A stretch of DNA of 37,224 nt from a virus, in IMG/VR virus record IMGVR_UViG_3300030117_003687, positions 1 through 37,224 of that record, one strand, 5' to 3'. How positions within the stretch are numbered: the first letter of the stretch is position 1; every line of letters starts with the position of its first letter. A program made the translations under genes and the position numbers. Positions 9,942-35,544 of this stretch are shown here, in pieces. Under the pieces are notes generated by a model. The model was not told where the DNA came from, did no database searches, and saw only the letters and a list, made by a program, of their open reading frames with translations.

Positions 9942-9974
9942 GCTTATTCCTCTCTTAAAGCCTGTACTAAAAAC

Positions 9975-9983
9975 TATATAGCA
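9975..9983 (-). promoter_or_regulatory. extended -10 promoter for the left late operon
   Basis: Read on the minus strand, this is TGCTATATA, a TGn extended -10 box, about 34 bp upstream of the 1715-aa start codon. The hexamer 17 bp further upstream (TATGTA) is a poor -35, consistent with an extended -10 promoter or an activator-dependent late promoter. Confidence 0.4.
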
Positions 9984-10151
9984 TTTCCAAATGAAAATAC
10001 ATAGCTAATTTTTTTGGGGGCACAAAAGGGGACCCAATGAAAATATACACAAATGAATTTATATTACCAGCATTATAGACCAAAACCTGTCGGCACGCAC
10101 GCACGATTCGGGGGGACGGGGTTGCGTCGATTGCATCTCGTTAAAAGTAAA

Positions 10152-10180
10152 CTGCACCAGTAACACCTAGTTAGGTGCAG
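10152..10180. repeat. nested inverted repeats, candidate operator
   Basis: CTGCACC (10152-10158) is the reverse complement of GGTGCAG (10174-10180). Inside it, CACCTA (10164-10169) pairs with TAGGTG (10172-10177) across a 2-bp centre. Both use the same right-hand GGTG, so two alternative structures or two overlapping binding sites are possible. It lies 41 bp upstream of the plus-strand -35 candidate. Confidence 0.5.
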
Positions 10181-10220
10181 CGTATACTTGTTTAAATTAT
10201 ATGTATTACTTGTGTTTTTA

Positions 10221-10250
10221 TTGTTGCAATTACATAATTTTTTCTATAGA
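10221..10250 (+). promoter_or_regulatory. candidate sigma70 promoter for 10292-11986 operon
   Basis: TTGTTG at 10221-10226 and TATAGA at 10245-10250, spaced 18 bp, in AT-rich DNA, with the first start codon 42 bp downstream of the -10. The -35 matches consensus only moderately. Confidence 0.4.
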
Positions 10251-10291
10251 ATTTTTATATCGAAAGATTTTTATTAGAAAAGGAATCATTA

Positions 10292-11008
10292 ATGAAAAAT
10301 GGAATCATATATAAAGGTCGGAGTCTTCTTAATGGTGAGGACGACGTTGTCGTTATTGCGACGCTAACTAAAAGCAATTCTAAAACGACCAACCCCAACG
10401 GCGACGGCGTTTTACAAACTTATATTTTAGTTGATGGAATCGACCCGAGACTTGCCAGTAAAACGGGGCAAGACTTTGCAATATGTGGCAATTGTAAACA
10501 TAGAGGAATCCCTAACAATGACCCGAATCGTAAAATTGCAAAAAAGAGAACGTGCTACGTTAACCTTGGCCAGGGAGTCCTAATTACTTATAATGCATAT
10601 ATTCGGGGCGTTTATCCTATGGCCAACAACGCAGCATCTAGAAAAGAATTAGGACGTGATCGAGTTGTTCGAGTCGGTACCTATGGAGATCCTGGAGCCG
10701 TTCCAAGTTTTGTTTGGGATCAGTTATTGAGTGAATGCGACTCTCACCTGGCATACACTCACCAGATTGGATATATGCCGGGAATCGCTATGCAATCGGC
10801 CGACTCTCATGAACAGGCCCTGGACCTATGGTCCAAAAACTTGCGTACATTTAGAACGCTGGATAGCGTCAACGATCTAGACAAAAACAACGAAGTACTT
10901 TGTCCAGCATCAAAAGAAGCGGGGCGGCGTGCGACGTGTGACAAGTGTAAGTTATGCGGCGGCCTATCCACAAAAACCAAAAAATCAATAGCAATTGTAT
11001 TACATTAA
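10292..11008 (+). CDS. conserved phage/plasmid protein with GTYGDPGAVP motif
   Basis: 238 aa, first gene of its operon, AAAGGA ribosome site upstream of the ATG at 10292. Recognisable blocks are AICGNCKHRG plus a later Cys in CYVNLGQG (possible metal site), RVGTYGDPGAVPSFVW, AYTHQIGYM and a C-terminal CPASKEAGRRATCDKCKLCGG with five cysteines. I recall this combination from hypothetical proteins of proteobacterial phages and plasmids, sometimes grouped with Gp88/DUF7227-like families. The two cysteine clusters suggest zinc or an Fe-S cluster. No activity is established to my knowledge, and none is assigned here. Position immediately after the divergent control region suggests early expression. 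Confidence 0.8.
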   Translation: MKNGIIYKGRSLLNGEDDVVVIATLTKSNSKTTNPNGDGVLQTYILVDGIDPRLASKTGQDFAICGNCKHRGIPNNDPNRKIAKKRTCYVNLGQGVLITYNAYIRGVYPMANNAASRKELGRDRVVRVGTYGDPGAVPSFVWDQLLSECDSHLAYTHQIGYMPGIAMQSADSHEQALDLWSKNLRTFRTLDSVNDLDKNNEVLCPASKEAGRRATCDKCKLCGGLSTKTKKSIAIVLH

Positions 11009-11582: not shown

Positions 11583-11801
11583 ATGAAAATTTATAAAGTA
11601 AAATGTTATGTAGATTTTCTGGATACTAAACCAGAAATATTTTCTTTTGAAAGTTTTGATCTAGCCCATGATTTTGTTGGTGATGAAATTACTAGAAGGA
11701 TGGAATATATTAGCTCACATTCCCAACACAGAATTGATGAAGAAGAATATAAAAATATAGAAGAGGAAGAACGTCTATTAGTTAAGATTGAGGAGTATTG
11801 A
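11583..11801 (+). CDS. 72-aa acidic hypothetical protein
   Basis: MKIYKVKCYVDFLDTKPEIF begins with the same YKVKxYV strand pattern as the neighbouring 52- and 60-aa proteins. A helix with LAHDFVGDEITRRMEYI follows, then a Glu-rich end (IDEEEYKNIEEEERLLVKIEEY). It starts 1 base after the previous stop, using GAGGAGTAT as ribosome site. Possibly a diverged paralogue of its neighbours. No function assigned. Confidence 0.65.
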   Translation: MKIYKVKCYVDFLDTKPEIFSFESFDLAHDFVGDEITRRMEYISSHSQHRIDEEEYKNIEEEERLLVKIEEY

Positions 11802-12006: not shown

Positions 12007-12034
12007 GCCCGGCCTCGAGCCGGGCATTTTTTTT
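12007..12034 (+). terminator. rho-independent terminator
   Basis: GCCCGGC (12007-12013), loop CTCGA, GCCGGGC (12019-12025), then A and eight T. A perfect 7-bp GC stem with a long U tract ends the 10292-11986 operon. Confidence 0.92.
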
Positions 12035-12044
12035 GCCTTAATCA

Positions 12045-12222
12045 TAAACCCCCCAGCGAAGACGCAAGAGTTTTTTCTAAACCCCCCAGCCGAGACGCAA
12101 GTCACTCGAACAAAGACGCAAAGTAAAGACGCAAGTCAGCTCGCAAGGCATCGAACAAAGACGCAAGATCCTCGAACCTTGAACCTATGCCATCGTTATA
12201 AACCCCCCAGCCGAGACGCAAG
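12045..12222. repeat. GACGCAA repeat array at the nuclease 3' end
   Basis: Three 24-bp copies of a C6-containing unit lie at 12045-12068, 12078-12101 and 12199-12222. Copies 2 and 3 are identical; copy 1 has two differences. Between them are shorter units, including the exact 16-mer TCGAACAAAGACGCAA at 12106-12121 and 12151-12166. The core GACGCAA occurs six times, all in the same orientation (12061, 12094, 12115, 12128, 12160, 12215). The array covers the end of the VRR-NUC gene and continues past its stop toward the terminator. It may be a packaging or protein-binding site, given the adjacent small terminase gene. Confidence 0.9.
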
Positions 12223-12518
12223 AGTCTAGAGCCGTGATGCCCCTCAAATAAAAATAGGTGCTTGGTCGTGAGGTGCTTGACCAAGTAAAAACTTTTGCCC
12301 TTTTTCGCAAAATATGCCATGTGCCACGCTATTTGATGAGGAGTAATATTTACCTTATTGGTTTTCGTTGTCTTTAATTCTATCCAAAAAGGTAAACCAT
12401 CCAAAACTAAATGAACGTCTGGAACACCCCCTCCGACTTTCGATTCAATTCTATTTGCTAGGCAATCTCTAGGCAGATTGTTTTTTATCTGTTTCCAAAA
12501 GTTCGACTCGCTGGGCAT
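12102..12518 (-). CDS. VRR-NUC domain nuclease
   Basis: 138 aa. The PD-(D/E)xK core is visible as GGGVPDVHLVLDGLPFWIELK, with D34, E47 and K49 as the expected metal-binding/catalytic residues, an upstream Glu in NRIESKVGGG (E25) and a conserved Gln in TPHQIAWH (Q62). VRR-NUC proteins cut branched or Holliday-type DNA. In phages they may resolve replication intermediates before packaging. The start has GAGGTAAAGG just upstream and overlaps the end of the small terminase gene by 50 bp. The last 40 or so residues (LRLGWGVYND... LASLFDALRADLRLYFASLFE) are encoded by the GACGCAA repeat array, so the C-terminus appears repeat-derived. Confidence 0.88.
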   Translation of the reverse strand: MPSESNFWKQIKNNLPRDCLANRIESKVGGGVPDVHLVLDGLPFWIELKTTKTNKVNITPHQIAWHMAYFAKKGKSFYLVKHLTTKHLFLFEGHHGSRLLRLGWGVYNDGIGSRFEDLASLFDALRADLRLYFASLFE

Positions 12519-13008
12519 CCTTTACCTCCTCAAACTCTGCGTCAACAACAAATGCTTGGGGGTACTGCTTTTGCAATGCAAGCAGTCGAGCCGTGATCTC
12601 ATCTCTAGAAAGTTGATCCAAAGTATTGATTGTTTCACGTCTATCAATAGTCAAACCCCCAAGAGCTGATCTTATCTTCTCAGCGTTAATACTTGCTGAA
12701 AATTGTCCAGCCTCTTCAGCCCCAAGGCTAAGTTTATGAAGTCGTTCAAGTTGACCAATAGTTGTCACTCCATAGCGTCTCTCTCGCTCTTGTCTCAGCT
12801 CGGTAATGTACTCAACGACATGAGGATAATCTCTACCATTTAAAAGTCTGGAGGCATACTCATTGGCGAGGTCTTGAGAATAGCCAGCCTTTCTCGCACA
12901 TTCTGTGTTCGAGTAGATGCCCTCAACAATGTGCCGAGAGAAAGTCATCTGTCTGTTAGTAAGTTTTCTGTCATTTTTCTTTTCTACTTTCTTCCTGATA
13001 GAAGGCAT
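12469..13008 (-). CDS. terS: terminase small subunit
   Basis: 179 aa. The ATG at 13008 is chosen because GGAG lies at proper spacing; a TTG two codons upstream is less likely. Residues about 18-60 form the DNA-binding helix-turn-helix with LTNRQMTFSRHIVEGIYSNTECARKAGYSQ, typical of the Terminase_2/XtmA family. An oligomerisation part follows with ITELRQERERRYGVTTIGQLERL and a Glu/Asp-rich C-terminus likely to contact TerL. It should recognise the packaging site and start packaging. Unlike most phages it is not next to TerL but 7.7 kb away, paired with a VRR-NUC nuclease under its own promoter region. Confidence 0.88.
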   Translation of the reverse strand: MPSIRKKVEKKNDRKLTNRQMTFSRHIVEGIYSNTECARKAGYSQDLANEYASRLLNGRDYPHVVEYITELRQERERRYGVTTIGQLERLHKLSLGAEEAGQFSASINAEKIRSALGGLTIDRRETINTLDQLSRDEITARLLALQKQYPQAFVVDAEFEEVKDAQRVELLETDKKQSA

Positions 13009-13037
13009 TTGCAAATCTCCAAATGTTTAAAAATTAT

Positions 13038-13309
13038 GAGACAAAGCATAGTCAAAAGGTCTGTCTCTATCAACCCTCGGGGACAGTAAAGTGTCCCCAA
13101 ACGGCAAAAACGTGTTTTTACAAAACATCAATTATAGGGGTTTTAGCCAGAGAAGTGTCCCCGTGTCTCAGGTTTGTCTCCAGATTTTTGTCTATAAGCA
13201 CCTTATTTTATTGAGTTGGGGACAGTGATGACAGTGGGGACACTAGATTCGAATTCATTTTTCAAAAAAAAAAAATCTGTGGCTAGGGGTTATATGTCAC
13301 TTTGTCTCC
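13038..13309. repeat. array of ten GRGACA / TGTCYC sites
   Basis: Forward GRGACA at 13038-13043, 13080-13085, 13219-13224 and 13237-13242. Reverse TGTCYC at 13062-13067, 13092-13097, 13156-13161, 13164-13169, 13175-13180 and 13303-13308. Two form a perfect palindrome, GGGGACA-6 bp-TGTCCCC (13079-13098). The pair at 13218/13236 is a direct repeat with an 18-bp period. About 0.3 such sites would be expected by chance in this length, so this is a genuine cluster, probably operators or iterons. Confidence 0.85.
13045..13073 (-). promoter_or_regulatory. sigma70-like promoter for terS-nuclease operon
   Basis: On the minus strand: TTGATA (13068-13073), 17-bp spacer, TATGCT (13045-13050), with the terS ATG at 13008. 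A TGTCTC site lies at 13062-13067, in the spacer directly beside the -35, and a GAGACA site sits just downstream of the -10, so binding there should repress it. Confidence 0.55.
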
Positions 13310-13390
13310 AAAGTACTTGCATATATGTTCTAGTTGTGGTTTAGTTGTGTATATAGAAAAAGTGATTCTATTTTTATTAGGAGAAAATCA

Positions 13391-16032: not shown

Positions 16033-16628
16033 CCTTAATTATCCGAGAAACCACGATGCAGAGTGCCAATGCTTTTATTAAAAAGTATCACAGGCACTCT
16101 GACATAGTACCAGCCCAACTGATGCACATATCTTTTGAGCTAATTGAATATCTCCATGTAGTCGATGGAAGCGTTCTCAAATACGCTAACAGAATTGGCG
16201 TTGCAATATTTGGTTATCCAAGTGGTCGATTTCATAACCAAGATATAATCGAATTAAGGCGAGTATGTTTTTCACCTGACGAACAGTTTTCTCAATTTAA
16301 AAACTGGTATCCTTCCGAGCGAGTGAAAAAATCTAAAAACAGCCCTAGTTTGAAAAATATTGCGATGATCGAACAGCTTTATGATACTCCACTTTCATTA
16401 TTGCCTGGAATAATGTGCAAAGCCTGGACCGTACCATCAAATTTTTTATTGTTTATCGAGCATATTGTAAGGCGTAGGTTTCCAGAATTTACTAGGATTG
16501 TGACTTACATTAGGCAGCATGAAAACGGCTCCTATTTAAAGAATGCTGGGTATTACATTGACAAACATTTTGAGAGAGGTGGTTCAAAAAAGTACAGATT
16601 AATGAAAGAGATAGGAGATTTATCATGA
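16029..16628 (+). CDS. Mom/XF1762-like GNAT-fold protein, possible DNA modifier
   Basis: 199 aa. The N-terminus has ANAFIKKYHRHSDIVPAQ (about 13-30), matching the A-x-x-F/W-I/V-x-x-x-HRH opening of XF1762/Mu Mom-like proteins. The core continues with IGVAIFGYPSGR (about 56-67), IIELRRVCF (about 73-81) and FTRIVTYIRQHENGSYLKNAGY (about 154-175), the GNAT-type strand and acyl-CoA loop region. Mu Mom converts adenine to a carbamoylmethyl derivative in DNA. Whether this homologue does the same is inference. An insertion at about 125-150 distinguishes it from short family members. A putative orphan methyltransferase lies 2.9 kb downstream. Confidence 0.7.
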   Translation: MTLIIRETTMQSANAFIKKYHRHSDIVPAQLMHISFELIEYLHVVDGSVLKYANRIGVAIFGYPSGRFHNQDIIELRRVCFSPDEQFSQFKNWYPSERVKKSKNSPSLKNIAMIEQLYDTPLSLLPGIMCKAWTVPSNFLLFIEHIVRRRFPEFTRIVTYIRQHENGSYLKNAGYYIDKHFERGGSKKYRLMKEIGDLS

Positions 16629-16831
16629 AAAAAGAATGGGTAATTGTTCGATATACAGATCACCGAGACAACGTAGGTCGTGAAGGTCGTGTAAATGCAT
16701 GGCGAGATTATGGTGATGACCACGTCTGGGGAAGTGTTCTTTATGAGGTCATAGGCTATCATAGTGGTTCTTATCGTGAAGCATTGGATCTCGGCAAGCA
16801 GTACTCTTGTGCTTTAGGTAAACGATCATGA
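16625..16831 (+). CDS. hypothetical protein, 68 aa
   Basis: MKKEWVIVRYTDHRDNVGRE continues with WRDYGDDHVWGSVLYEVIGY and SYREALDLGKQ. The pattern strand-loop-strand-helix is compact and soluble. The start overlaps the stop of the Mom-like gene (ATGA) with TAGGAG upstream. Unknown function. Confidence 0.6.
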   Translation: MKKEWVIVRYTDHRDNVGREGRVNAWRDYGDDHVWGSVLYEVIGYHSGSYREALDLGKQYSCALGKRS

Positions 16832-17243: not shown

Positions 17244-17464
17244 TGTTTTTTAAAGGAGAGTTAGCAATCAACCATGAGCCTAGTTTAGATTACATGGCTA
17301 AATTATGGGCAACTGAAAATGTTGAGGAAGCAAAAGCAGAGGAGGCCAGAGGTTTTGAAAGTAAATTCTCAACATGTTTTGATTATGAGTACGAAATGTC
17401 ATGGTCTGCGATTGAAGGTGATCTAGAACAGGACGGATTAGAATGGGAGGAGACAGATGAGTGA
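17240..17464 (+). CDS. acidic hypothetical protein, 74 aa
   Basis: MMFFKGELAINHEPSLDYMA then a Glu/Ala helix (VEEAKAEEARGFE) and an acidic tail (LEQDGLEWEETDE). AAAGGAGGTCGC precedes the start, an almost ideal ribosome site. The end overlaps the next gene by 8 bp. Function unknown. Confidence 0.6.
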   Translation: MMFFKGELAINHEPSLDYMAKLWATENVEEAKAEEARGFESKFSTCFDYEYEMSWSAIEGDLEQDGLEWEETDE

Positions 17465-17813
17465 ACCAATTTATCCAACAAAGGAAAGTCTAAAAGCCGA
17501 TGGTCAATTAACTGACTACGGTAAAGAAATTTATGAAATATTAGACAAAGTAATAGCTCAGTCAAAAGAGTGGTTCGAGGAAAGCAGAACCGACAGAGAT
17601 AACGAAGTCGATGAGAATTATATTCATGGATTTGAAATTGATGGTTACAGTTTCGATATTGATATTTGGGATGGTCGAAAAATCAACGATGACAATAAAT
17701 GGCATTGCGAAGTTATCGAATGTCACGACGACGGAGTATATCATTGTCGTGGCTATCGTGAGCAATTTCTTTGGGAAATTGAGATAGAAGAACAGGAGAA
17801 ACAAGATGGCTAA
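17457..17813 (+). CDS. acidic hypothetical protein, 118 aa
   Basis: Contains a YPTKESLKADGQLTDYGKEI lead, a helix about 30-45, and a beta-rich half: YIHGFEIDGYSFDIDIWDGR, WHCEVIECHDDGVYHCRGYR. It ends in a highly charged helix. GGGAGGAGACAG supports the start. No family is recognised. Its 3' end overlaps the next small ORF by 8 bp. Confidence 0.62.
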   Translation: MSEPIYPTKESLKADGQLTDYGKEIYEILDKVIAQSKEWFEESRTDRDNEVDENYIHGFEIDGYSFDIDIWDGRKINDDNKWHCEVIECHDDGVYHCRGYREQFLWEIEIEEQEKQDG

Positions 17814-33194: not shown

Positions 33195-34406
33195 CTAAGG
33201 TTTCTTGAGAAGTTTACCTGAATTTTTGTCTCTAAAAACAGTCCCAGAAGTCAACTCATCATATTCTTCTTTAGTGCCTATAATTTTAACAGAACCACCA
33301 AGCCTATCTTCTGTAATGTCTATTGCTCTCCTAGACAAAGGAGCTATTCTAGAAGCTACTTCTTGTGCCGCTTCATCTGCTTGTTCGGGAGACATTCTTT
33401 CTCCAGTATCAGGATCTACCTTACTTATGTTTTCTGCAAAAAGAGCAGCATACGCAGCGTCATACGTTTTATCTGCCTCTTTAGTTACCTCGTCTTGCTT
33501 GTCCATTGCATAAAGAGAACTTTCCGCATACGCCCGAGAAGGAAAAGGACTTTTACTAGCAGCTTCTGCAAACCCTTGCCTCATCTGAAACCTTAAAGCC
33601 TCTTTCTCTTGAGGAGATAAACCCTTATCAACCGTTACCTCCTCTAGTCCTTCAGGTATTCCTTCATCCTCAAACAAACTTCCTATTGCTTTATCGCCAT
33701 AATACAACCCAGCTCCTGTTAAAATAGGGTTTCTTCTCATTGCTCTTAAAGTTTTACCCACAGGTCCTGTGGGTTTGCCACCACCAACTTTTCCTCTTAA
33801 AGCATCAATACCTCTTCCGACAGTAGCCCCTGCAAGACGATCTACTTTACTTATAGCTTTTTCAAAACCTGCTGGACCTTTTCCCCCGATACCTGATCTA
33901 GGTCTTCCTTGTAAAGAACGTGCAATACGAGGGAGATATTGTAATCCTCGTTGAACTAATGCTCCAGCAAAATAGTTACTTGGATAAGCATTCATAATGC
34001 CACCTGTTGCCGCCATTCGCACAGGCATGTTCATTTGAGGGGGCTGTCCCATCTGAGGTCGTTGCCCCATCTGAGGCTGCATTCTCATTTGAGGGGGCTG
34101 TCCCATTTGAGGAGGCTGTCCCATTTGAGGAGGCTGTCCCATCTGGGGTTGCATTCTCATCTGAGGCTGCATTCTCATTTGAGGAGGAGACATTGGTTTA
34201 CCAGGAGGTATAATAGGTTGAAAGGGAACAGGGTTCATCATTCCCTGACCCGTCATCTTTTCAACAGTAGCACTTGGAGCACCACCCATAACAGCGTTCA
34301 TAAGTTCTTCAGAAGATCCCATAATGCCACCCATTTTTTTAAGGGCGTTTCTTGCTTCTTGGTTTTTCTTTCTAAATAAACTTCTGTTATTAACATCTGT
34401 TGCCAT
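33195..34406 (-). CDS. virion-associated protein with Pro-Gln-Met repeats
   Basis: 403 aa. The ATG at 34406 (MATDVNNRSL) follows the upstream stop by 1 base, with GGAG upstream; an earlier frame start at 34418 is less likely. Residues about 70-125 are low-complexity PQMGQP/PQMRMQ hexapeptides from an 18-bp DNA repeat. Then come hydrophobic MAATGGIMNAYPSNYFAGAL, a Gly/Arg-rich part, and an acidic helical C-terminus (EVASRIAPLSRRAIDITEDR). It lies between other virion genes and is probably an internal or tail-associated structural protein. Catalytic motifs are not seen. Confidence 0.65.
   Translation of the reverse strand: MATDVNNRSLFRKKNQEARNALKKMGGIMGSSEELMNAVMGGAPSATVEKMTGQGMMNPVPFQPIIPPGKPMSPPQMRMQPQMRMQPQMGQPPQMGQPPQMGQPPQMRMQPQMGQRPQMGQPPQMNMPVRMAATGGIMNAYPSNYFAGALVQRGLQYLPRIARSLQGRPRSGIGGKGPAGFEKAISKVDRLAGATVGRGIDALRGKVGGGKPTGPVGKTLRAMRRNPILTGAGLYYGDKAIGSLFEDEGIPEGLEEVTVDKGLSPQEKEALRFQMRQGFAEAASKSPFPSRAYAESSLYAMDKQDEVTKEADKTYDAAYAALFAENISKVDPDTGERMSPEQADEAAQEVASRIAPLSRRAIDITEDRLGGSVKIIGTKEEYDELTSGTVFRDKNSGKLLKKP
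34041..34184. repeat. 18-bp coding minisatellite, eight units
   Basis: Eight contiguous 18-bp units on the plus strand, such as AGGCTGTCCCATTTGAGG, with two unit classes (GGCTGTCCCAT... and CTGCATTCTCAT...) interspersed. They encode PQM(G/R)-containing hexapeptides on the minus strand. In-frame unit length means gain or loss of a unit would not disrupt the gene. Confidence 0.88.
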
Positions 34407-34407
34407 G

Positions 34408-35544
34408 TTACACTCCACTCACGTTTCTAAGACCACCCAGTCCACCAAGTTGTTGTTGTGCTGAATATCCTGCAACATTTCCTAAGAAAGAAGATACAGG
34501 ATTAGGTCTTGGTATACTAGACATTGTCATTGTTTGTGCCGTGGAAGGAACGCCCCTAAATATATCAGACATATATGAAAAACGTTGAAAGGGTTCATAT
34601 GCTTCTTCTATGGCCCCAGCCCTCTGCACATCATATTCTGCTTGTCTCTGTGCTTGCTCTAAGGAACCAACATTAAACAAGGCATTAATATCTCGTTGTG
34701 CCGCAGATTGTGCTGCTTCCCCAAGAGCACCTTGCTTCACACCAAGCCCTGCAATACCCTGACCCAAAGAACCAAACAATTGTGATGCTGTTTGTCCTCT
34801 GTTCATTTGGTTTTCAAACGCAGATTGTGCTTGCTGTTGAGCACCTGTGTAAGCCTGTGATCGTAGCTGTGCACCCACTCGTGCTTTTCTATCGTCTATG
34901 TTTCTTTGTAACTCTTGCTCTGTAACCGCTTGTCGAGATCCACCAAAGGCTCCGGAACGAACAGCTTGAGCTCGATCACCAATTCCTGCTATATCCCCGG
35001 CTCTTTGAATGTCTGCTTGTGTTGTATCAATTACTTCCTCTACAAACGGATCATAAAACTCTTTATATGAAGTGGGATCATATGCCCCTGTTGTACTGTC
35101 TAAAGTAGTCCCAGCCTTTCTATAAGATTCAAGACCCTCGCCCAAGGTACTGGCAGCTTGTTCCATCATAGGTTGATATAAACCTATACCACCTCCAACT
35201 CTTTCTCCGGTTTCAGGGTCAACAGTTCCTGTCATTAATTCTATGGCTCTTTGTTGAGCCGGAGTAAACTGCATAATGTCAGGTCGAGGAACACCGCCTT
35301 GAACTTGTTGTATCGGTTCACCATATTGATCGTATCTTACATTACCTTCCTGATCTAACTCATAAACAGGATTACCTTCTTCGTCTGTTACAGGAACACC
35401 GTATAACGGAGACGTGGCAGCAATGCCTGTAGGTTGACCTGTCTCAGGATCAACTTGATAAACATTTGCTAGAAGGTCTTTAAGAAATCGTTCTTGATAG
35501 TCAGGAAGATATTGACCACTTAACTGTACATACTGTTCAGCCAT
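34408..35544 (-). CDS. virion structural protein with GAFGGSRQ motif
   Basis: 378 aa. An N-terminal YLPDYQERFLKDLLANVYQ is followed by TPAQQRAIELMTG, a PFVEEVIDTTQADIQRAGDI helix, VRSGAFGGSRQAVTEQELQR, a Gln/Ala-rich helical stretch with YTGAQQQAQSAFENQ, and a C-terminal PFQRFSYMSDIFRGVPS. I recall the SGAFGGSRQ block from internal virion proteins of environmental podo-like phages. A packaged, mostly helical protein is likely, but the exact location is unproven. TAATG junction with the upstream gene. Confidence 0.7.
   Translation of the reverse strand: MAEQYVQLSGQYLPDYQERFLKDLLANVYQVDPETGQPTGIAATSPLYGVPVTDEEGNPVYELDQEGNVRYDQYGEPIQQVQGGVPRPDIMQFTPAQQRAIELMTGTVDPETGERVGGGIGLYQPMMEQAASTLGEGLESYRKAGTTLDSTTGAYDPTSYKEFYDPFVEEVIDTTQADIQRAGDIAGIGDRAQAVRSGAFGGSRQAVTEQELQRNIDDRKARVGAQLRSQAYTGAQQQAQSAFENQMNRGQTASQLFGSLGQGIAGLGVKQGALGEAAQSAAQRDINALFNVGSLEQAQRQAEYDVQRAGAIEEAYEPFQRFSYMSDIFRGVPSTAQTMTMSSIPRPNPVSSFLGNVAGYSAQQQLGGLGGLRNVSGV

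Follow-up and report, generated by a model that had tools for sequence, protein, structure and literature searches.

The short-repeat arrays that stand beside the terminal repeat of phage T7 are known as SRL and SRR; intergenic, they flank a 160-bp repeat. Direct repeats are also placed within or around genes: P1 has hexamer repeats inside pacA, the repA gene of P1 and the repE gene of F lie between iterons, and the iterons of lambda sit inside gene O. In SPP1, direct repeats are found at terS (PMC4737164), and pac reads CTATTGCGG/C, accompanied by a TTGCGGCW pseudo-site (PMC5615212).

We describe here a marine array that resembles each of these systems in part. It belongs to a virus record of 37,224 bases (the window, in what follows), whose kin at the protein level are the pelagiphages HTVC027P and HTVC023P, and also 023Pt_psg01 and DSL-LC04. 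As in T7, a word of 7 bp is repeated in one orientation and makes one of the strongest clusters of the genome; two same-word arrays, as T7 has them, are seen in most relatives but not in the window. Unlike those of T7, the marine arrays flank a gene of ~0.7 kb and use a word that varies by lineage, and the first of them, array 1, runs into a gene. Phage S2B and the actinophages RhynO, Anon and Odin likewise have short one-strand arrays close to a physical end, at 1-3 kb from a DUF7227 gene, but their words have no sequence similarity to the marine ones and their genomes are of other types. The pac sites of SPP1/SF6 and P1 share with the marine array direct repeats at the small-terminase locus, and SPP1/SF6 share the TerS family as well; yet the marine array follows a nuclease gene, not TerS, and the TerS helix does not covary with it. 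Iteron origins (lambda ori, P1 oriR/incA, F ori2/incC), finally, also consist of direct repeats inside or flanking a linked gene, whereas the marine word is shorter, its spacing is irregular and it has no known initiator. Open-access papers yielded no description of the marine arrays, and at the DNA level a search among named phages gave no match.

Array 1 and its neighbours in the window

The features discussed below are, by position:

9942..10291, no strand assigned: place of array 2 in relatives; the window has there only one core, TTGCGTC at 10122-10128, in opposite orientation
10292..11008, + strand: GP88/DUF7227-superfamily gene (phrog_2554, E 1.6e-44; weak DUF7227 match, E 0.039)
12007..12033, + strand: terminator-like hairpin (12007-12025) and T run, from a pattern scan, between array 1 and the rightward genes
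12045..12222, - strand: array 1, whose six cores read TTGCGTC on the nuclease strand and GACGCAA on +
12102..12518, - strand: VRR-NUC/Hjc-like nuclease gene (phrog_2165; PHROG 2165, E 3.7e-18)
12469..13014, - strand: small terminase subunit, TerS (PF03592 Terminase_2, E 5.4e-7)

An earlier, sequence-only reading had noticed six same-orientation GACGCAA cores here, and they are indeed all on the + strand (starts at 12061, 12094, 12115, 12128, 12160 and 12215), within 161 bp (12061-12221); on the strand of TerS and the nuclease they read TTGCGTC. Three of the six fall within 24-bp units with C6/G6, and these units (12045-12068, 12078-12101 and 12199-12222), as well as a 16-mer, TCGAACAAAGACGCAA, present twice (12106-12121 and 12151-12166), are confirmed as well, and a terminator-like hairpin is present where that reading placed a terminator. 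Its single reverse copy, TTGCGTC at 10122-10128, is real too, but the window has nine more copies dispersed along its length. In all, GACGCAA occurs 16 times there, against 2.5 +/- 1.6 in dinucleotide shuffles. Ranked by a Poisson score for same-strand words within 250 bp, array 1 is the top cluster of the 37-kb window (AGACGCA x6, score 12.5), and the runner-up, a coding repeat, scores 7.6. A one-orientation short word makes the strongest cluster, rank 1, in HTVC027P as it does in the window. Rfam and tRNA scans gave no match.

The nuclease has sub-threshold Pfam matches to Hjc, RecU and VRR_NUC (E 0.02-0.04), and the TerS ORF overlaps its start. Against PDB, the TerS profile finds the Pam5 TerS chain (E 8e-6) and, more weakly, TerS of SPP1 and SF6 (E 0.006-0.009), which places it by profile in the SPP1/SF6 family (PF03592; SPP1/SF6 chain matches weak). 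Array DNA encodes the last ~40 codons of the nuclease, with four cores inside the ORF and two beyond the stop. It had been proposed that part of the array is translated as the nuclease C-terminus: this holds for those four cores, but the protein ends in ...LYFASLFE, not LASLFE.

A kept place and a changing word

Relatives were gathered by TerS searches of IMG/VR, and the densities given next refer to the 192 loci that have both TerS and the nuclease. On the nuclease strand, TGCGNCY occurs 5.99 times per 330 bp at the nuclease 3' end, across the stop codon; elsewhere in those loci the figure is 0.385, and in reverse orientation 0.10. About one sixth of the loci hold three copies or fewer. Sorted by nuclease frame, the cores of 161 distinct arrays number 302, 239 and 187, and 190 lie beyond the stop. 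Because they use all three frames and run beyond the stop, selection acts on the DNA, and the nuclease tail is therefore a by-product of it. The tail peptide varies by lineage (LRP-, LAP- or LAS-like). A comparison of C-termini does not support the suggestion that repeats had replaced an original gene end: the array-coded tail is general among relatives, so that no older, array-free end is seen in the clade. More than 200 loci from related phages, most of them marine, have an array at this one place, with a copy number that varies among close kin (twelve in locus L020, six in L019) and with mixed core spacings (7, 8, 13, 20 and 28-30) instead of one tandem period.

Two other ideas were tried and rejected. 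A repeat of the protein does not agree with cores in three frames and beyond the stop; a trait of the whole nuclease family does not agree with the distant homologs of Achromobacter phages, Rhodobacter phages and DSL-LC04, in which no array was found.

Lineages without TGCGNCY have another one-strand array at the nuclease 3' end. This is made of TCGGG in L102, L111 and L115, of TTCGGG in L147 and L148, of 10-17 copies of GCTTG in most of ~70 HTVC027P-type loci, and of TCTCGTT/GCCTCG in part of L262-L270. In HTVC023P itself the nuclease 3' end has repeats of ~18 bp, and many other loci of its type have weak, AT-rich repeats only, which makes the HTVC023P type the weakest case for the statement that the word switches while the place is kept. 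TerS, in the clade of the window, adjoins the array. In HTVC027P-type loci it is encoded on the opposite strand, upstream of the nuclease by 260-970 bp in most cases; in HTVC023P-type loci the upstream distance is for the most part 2.5-3.9 kb. When TerS moves or flips strand, the array tracks the nuclease 3' end and its orientation: it goes with the nuclease and GP88/DUF7227 genes, not with TerS.

Some loci deserve mention for themselves. Eight of them, which form a sub-lineage (L027, L047, L101, L106, L108, L140, L142 and L146), have at the nuclease 3' end two CCTGCGGCCCCACGCG units only, followed by CGAGGAACGAGG-like repeats, without a regular array. In HTVC027P (MN698241), the two arrays are at 16506-16631 and 17396-17490; the annotated gp32 (16499-16747, - strand) lies antisense over the GCTTG array (region 16506-16747), and is probably spurious; the nuclease homolog that ends at this array is without annotation. 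In HTVC023P (MN698239), CTAGGAA x5 at 11680-11770, about 100 bp upstream of terS, makes a second kind of one-strand array.

Most relatives have two arrays that share word and orientation. Array 2 is usually ~1 kb from array 1, past the GP88/DUF7227 gene, and has on average 4.7 forward copies versus 0.13 reverse (144 loci). The word distance between arrays 1 and 2 within a genome is 1.55, against 2.72 +/- 0.10 when permuted, a comparison that makes no correction for relatedness. Stronger evidence comes from the wholesale switches TGCGNCY/TCGGG/GCTTG, which are seen at both arrays jointly. In the window array 2 is absent, and its nearest relatives (L001, L002 and L003) hold 0-1 copies. The gene between the arrays is GP88 in HTVC027P, 023Pt_psg01 and HTVC023P (E 2.5e-28 to 1e-39). 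Its counterpart in the window is phrog_2554, with a weak DUF7227 match only, so that shared motifs and position are the grounds for giving the two forms a common ancestor.

What, then, reads the word? A host factor (the reader of Chi, of a DnaA box and similar sites) was rejected: HTVC027P uses GCTTG and HTVC023P a word of the TTGAGAATAACAACGAAA type, and both infect HTCC1062, so that one host with two words argues against a host protein. Among phage proteins, near-identical TerS recognition helices pair with TGCGCC and with GTCGGG, and the partial Mantel correlation between word and TerS recognition helix is nil. Correlations with array distance reach 0.45 for DUF7227, 0.42 for the nuclease and 0.38 for the rest of TerS, which is roughly what linkage would give.

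Genome ends and the role of the arrays

In four phages with known ends, the top same-strand cluster lies less than 500 bp from a terminus. T7, taken for its known arrays, served as a positive control: CCTAAAG comes out at ranks 1 and 2 with 7-mers, the top cluster being at 175-338. The other three were chosen as carriers of DUF7227, and we therefore present four cases and not a survey. Their top clusters are at 45226-45471 of 45682 in S2B, adjoining an annotated terminal repeat of 259 bp, at 46464-46627 of 46739 in RhynO, and at 52173-52392 of 52661 in Anon. Read across its joined ends, RhynO has DUF7227 first, then the array, the end and HNH/TerS. Odin has CGATGC x7 between 60 and 164 bp from its right end. 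Lambda shows no such end array in the same scan, hence the rule of an array near an end is not universal.

A total of 147 named phage records contain DUF7227 homologs. In the listed actinophages, whose records we take to start and finish at cohesive ends, about 0.9-3.6 kb separate the gene from the right end, and CRP-118 and S2B also have it near their ends; in Klebsiella, Microcystis, Bradyrhizobium and Seuss phages and in HTVC033P, the DUF7227/GP88 gene is away from the record ends. Many unrelated phages nevertheless have the gene close to a record end, and among these the mycobacteriophages and Gordonia phages are the most consistent.

Because the architecture matches the end arrays of T7, and because DUF7227 and similar arrays occur at known ends in several phages, we read the marine array as a terminus or packaging array of the SRL/SRR kind, an interpretation in which belief and doubt are for us evenly balanced; on this reading, the DNA of these phages is probably cut and packaged there. 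The array would act in cis, as DNA, within or next to the region of the physical end or of packaging initiation. On concatemers, its word of 5-7 bp would be recognized in one orientation by a phage-encoded factor, the fixed orientation allowing polar recognition, and the genome end would be made at the array by the terminase, possibly together with the linked nuclease. The stretch between the arrays might be a terminal repeat. From this analogy we infer that the ends of these phages lie at the arrays, that a protein binds the word and which proteins might do so. The role of candidate packaging site first given to array 1 thus remains the best supported, by analogy, but its link to TerS is not supported: with TerS elsewhere or on the other strand, the array is still found at the nuclease 3' end, and its word does not follow the recognition helix.

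A wider statement must be made more tentatively, since we would sooner doubt it than trust it: in abundant marine phages, paired arrays of fixed orientation whose words (TGCGNCY, TCGGG, TTCGGG, GCTTG) switch jointly would flank GP88/DUF7227 and delimit a packaging end or a terminal repeat of ~1 kb, which would make GP88/DUF7227 a family associated with termini in many tailed phages. If one-strand arrays beside GP88/DUF7227 do mark ends, termini would be predictable from sequence alone, and this matters, because for most metagenomic phages, among them the widespread pelagiphages of the HTVC023P type, neither genome ends nor packaging signals are known. The joint switch of a word at two sites would amount to a natural experiment in the coupled change of a recognition site with its reader; the candidate readers, TerS, the nuclease and GP88/DUF7227, could be tested directly in cultured phages that share one host strain.

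Contig ends favour neither side. IMG/VR classes 16 long member contigs as linear; of the near-full-length contigs, G001, G003 and G005 have overlapping ends that lie far from the array, and G002 opens within array 1. Contig ends fall inside the array in 9 of 145 cases in a 100-bp bin, where about 3 are expected, a mild excess that is confounded by the fact that repeats break assemblies.

Four other explanations have to be weighed; from more to less probable, they are a replication origin with iterons, a pac site in the strict TerS sense, an element of the nuclease or its transcript, and a neutral minisatellite. An origin whose iterons are bound by a phage initiator, possibly the GP88/DUF7227 protein, appears rather unlikely to us. 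Two arrays of the same word flanking one gene would suit it, and DUF7227 correlates best with array distance, though the nuclease is close behind and linkage alone could suffice. Against it, DUF7227/GP88 has no known replication function, the iterons of lambda ori score just 4.4 in our scan, and the skew does not invert at the array in HTVC027P or HTVC023P; this last point is compatible with an origin, because one-directional replication would give no inversion. A pac site of the SPP1/SF6 type, where the TerS helix-turn-helix reads the word and TerL cuts nearby to start headful packaging, is distinctly unlikely. The family of the window TerS speaks for it, and so does TTGCGGC of SPP1 pac, found in some arrays (L067 and L078), a likeness of seven bases that may be due to chance. 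The array, however, remains with the nuclease even where TerS has another location or strand, and near-identical helices go with different words, with a nil partial Mantel result for the helix. This lack of covariation is not decisive, because the DNA-binding domain of SF6 TerS itself shows little specificity for pac repeats (PMC4737164).

Repeats on which the linked nuclease acts, or through which its messenger is regulated, we would rank as slightly less probable again. Within the clade the array always follows the nuclease 3' end and orientation, as this explanation would have it, but a second array stands in the control region of another gene, the Achromobacter, Rhodobacter and DSL-LC04 homologs do without one, and Rfam finds nothing. 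That the array should be a minisatellite, born of replication slippage in a tolerant 3' region and devoid of function, is most improbable. Copy numbers that differ between near kin such as L020 and L019, and words that are fairly homogeneous inside one array, are what slippage would leave behind; a constant place and orientation in more than 200 loci, words that switch together at two separate arrays, and mixed spacings with no single tandem period are not.

Two more repeated regions of the window stand apart from array 1. At 13079-13310, GGGGACA/TGTCCCC in both orientations fills the divergent region upstream of TerS (rank 3 cluster), and is a possible operator or origin. At 34032-34187, within the ORF 33195-34418 (- strand), coding tandem repeats with periods of 18, 36 and 72 bp specify a QPPQM-like peptide.
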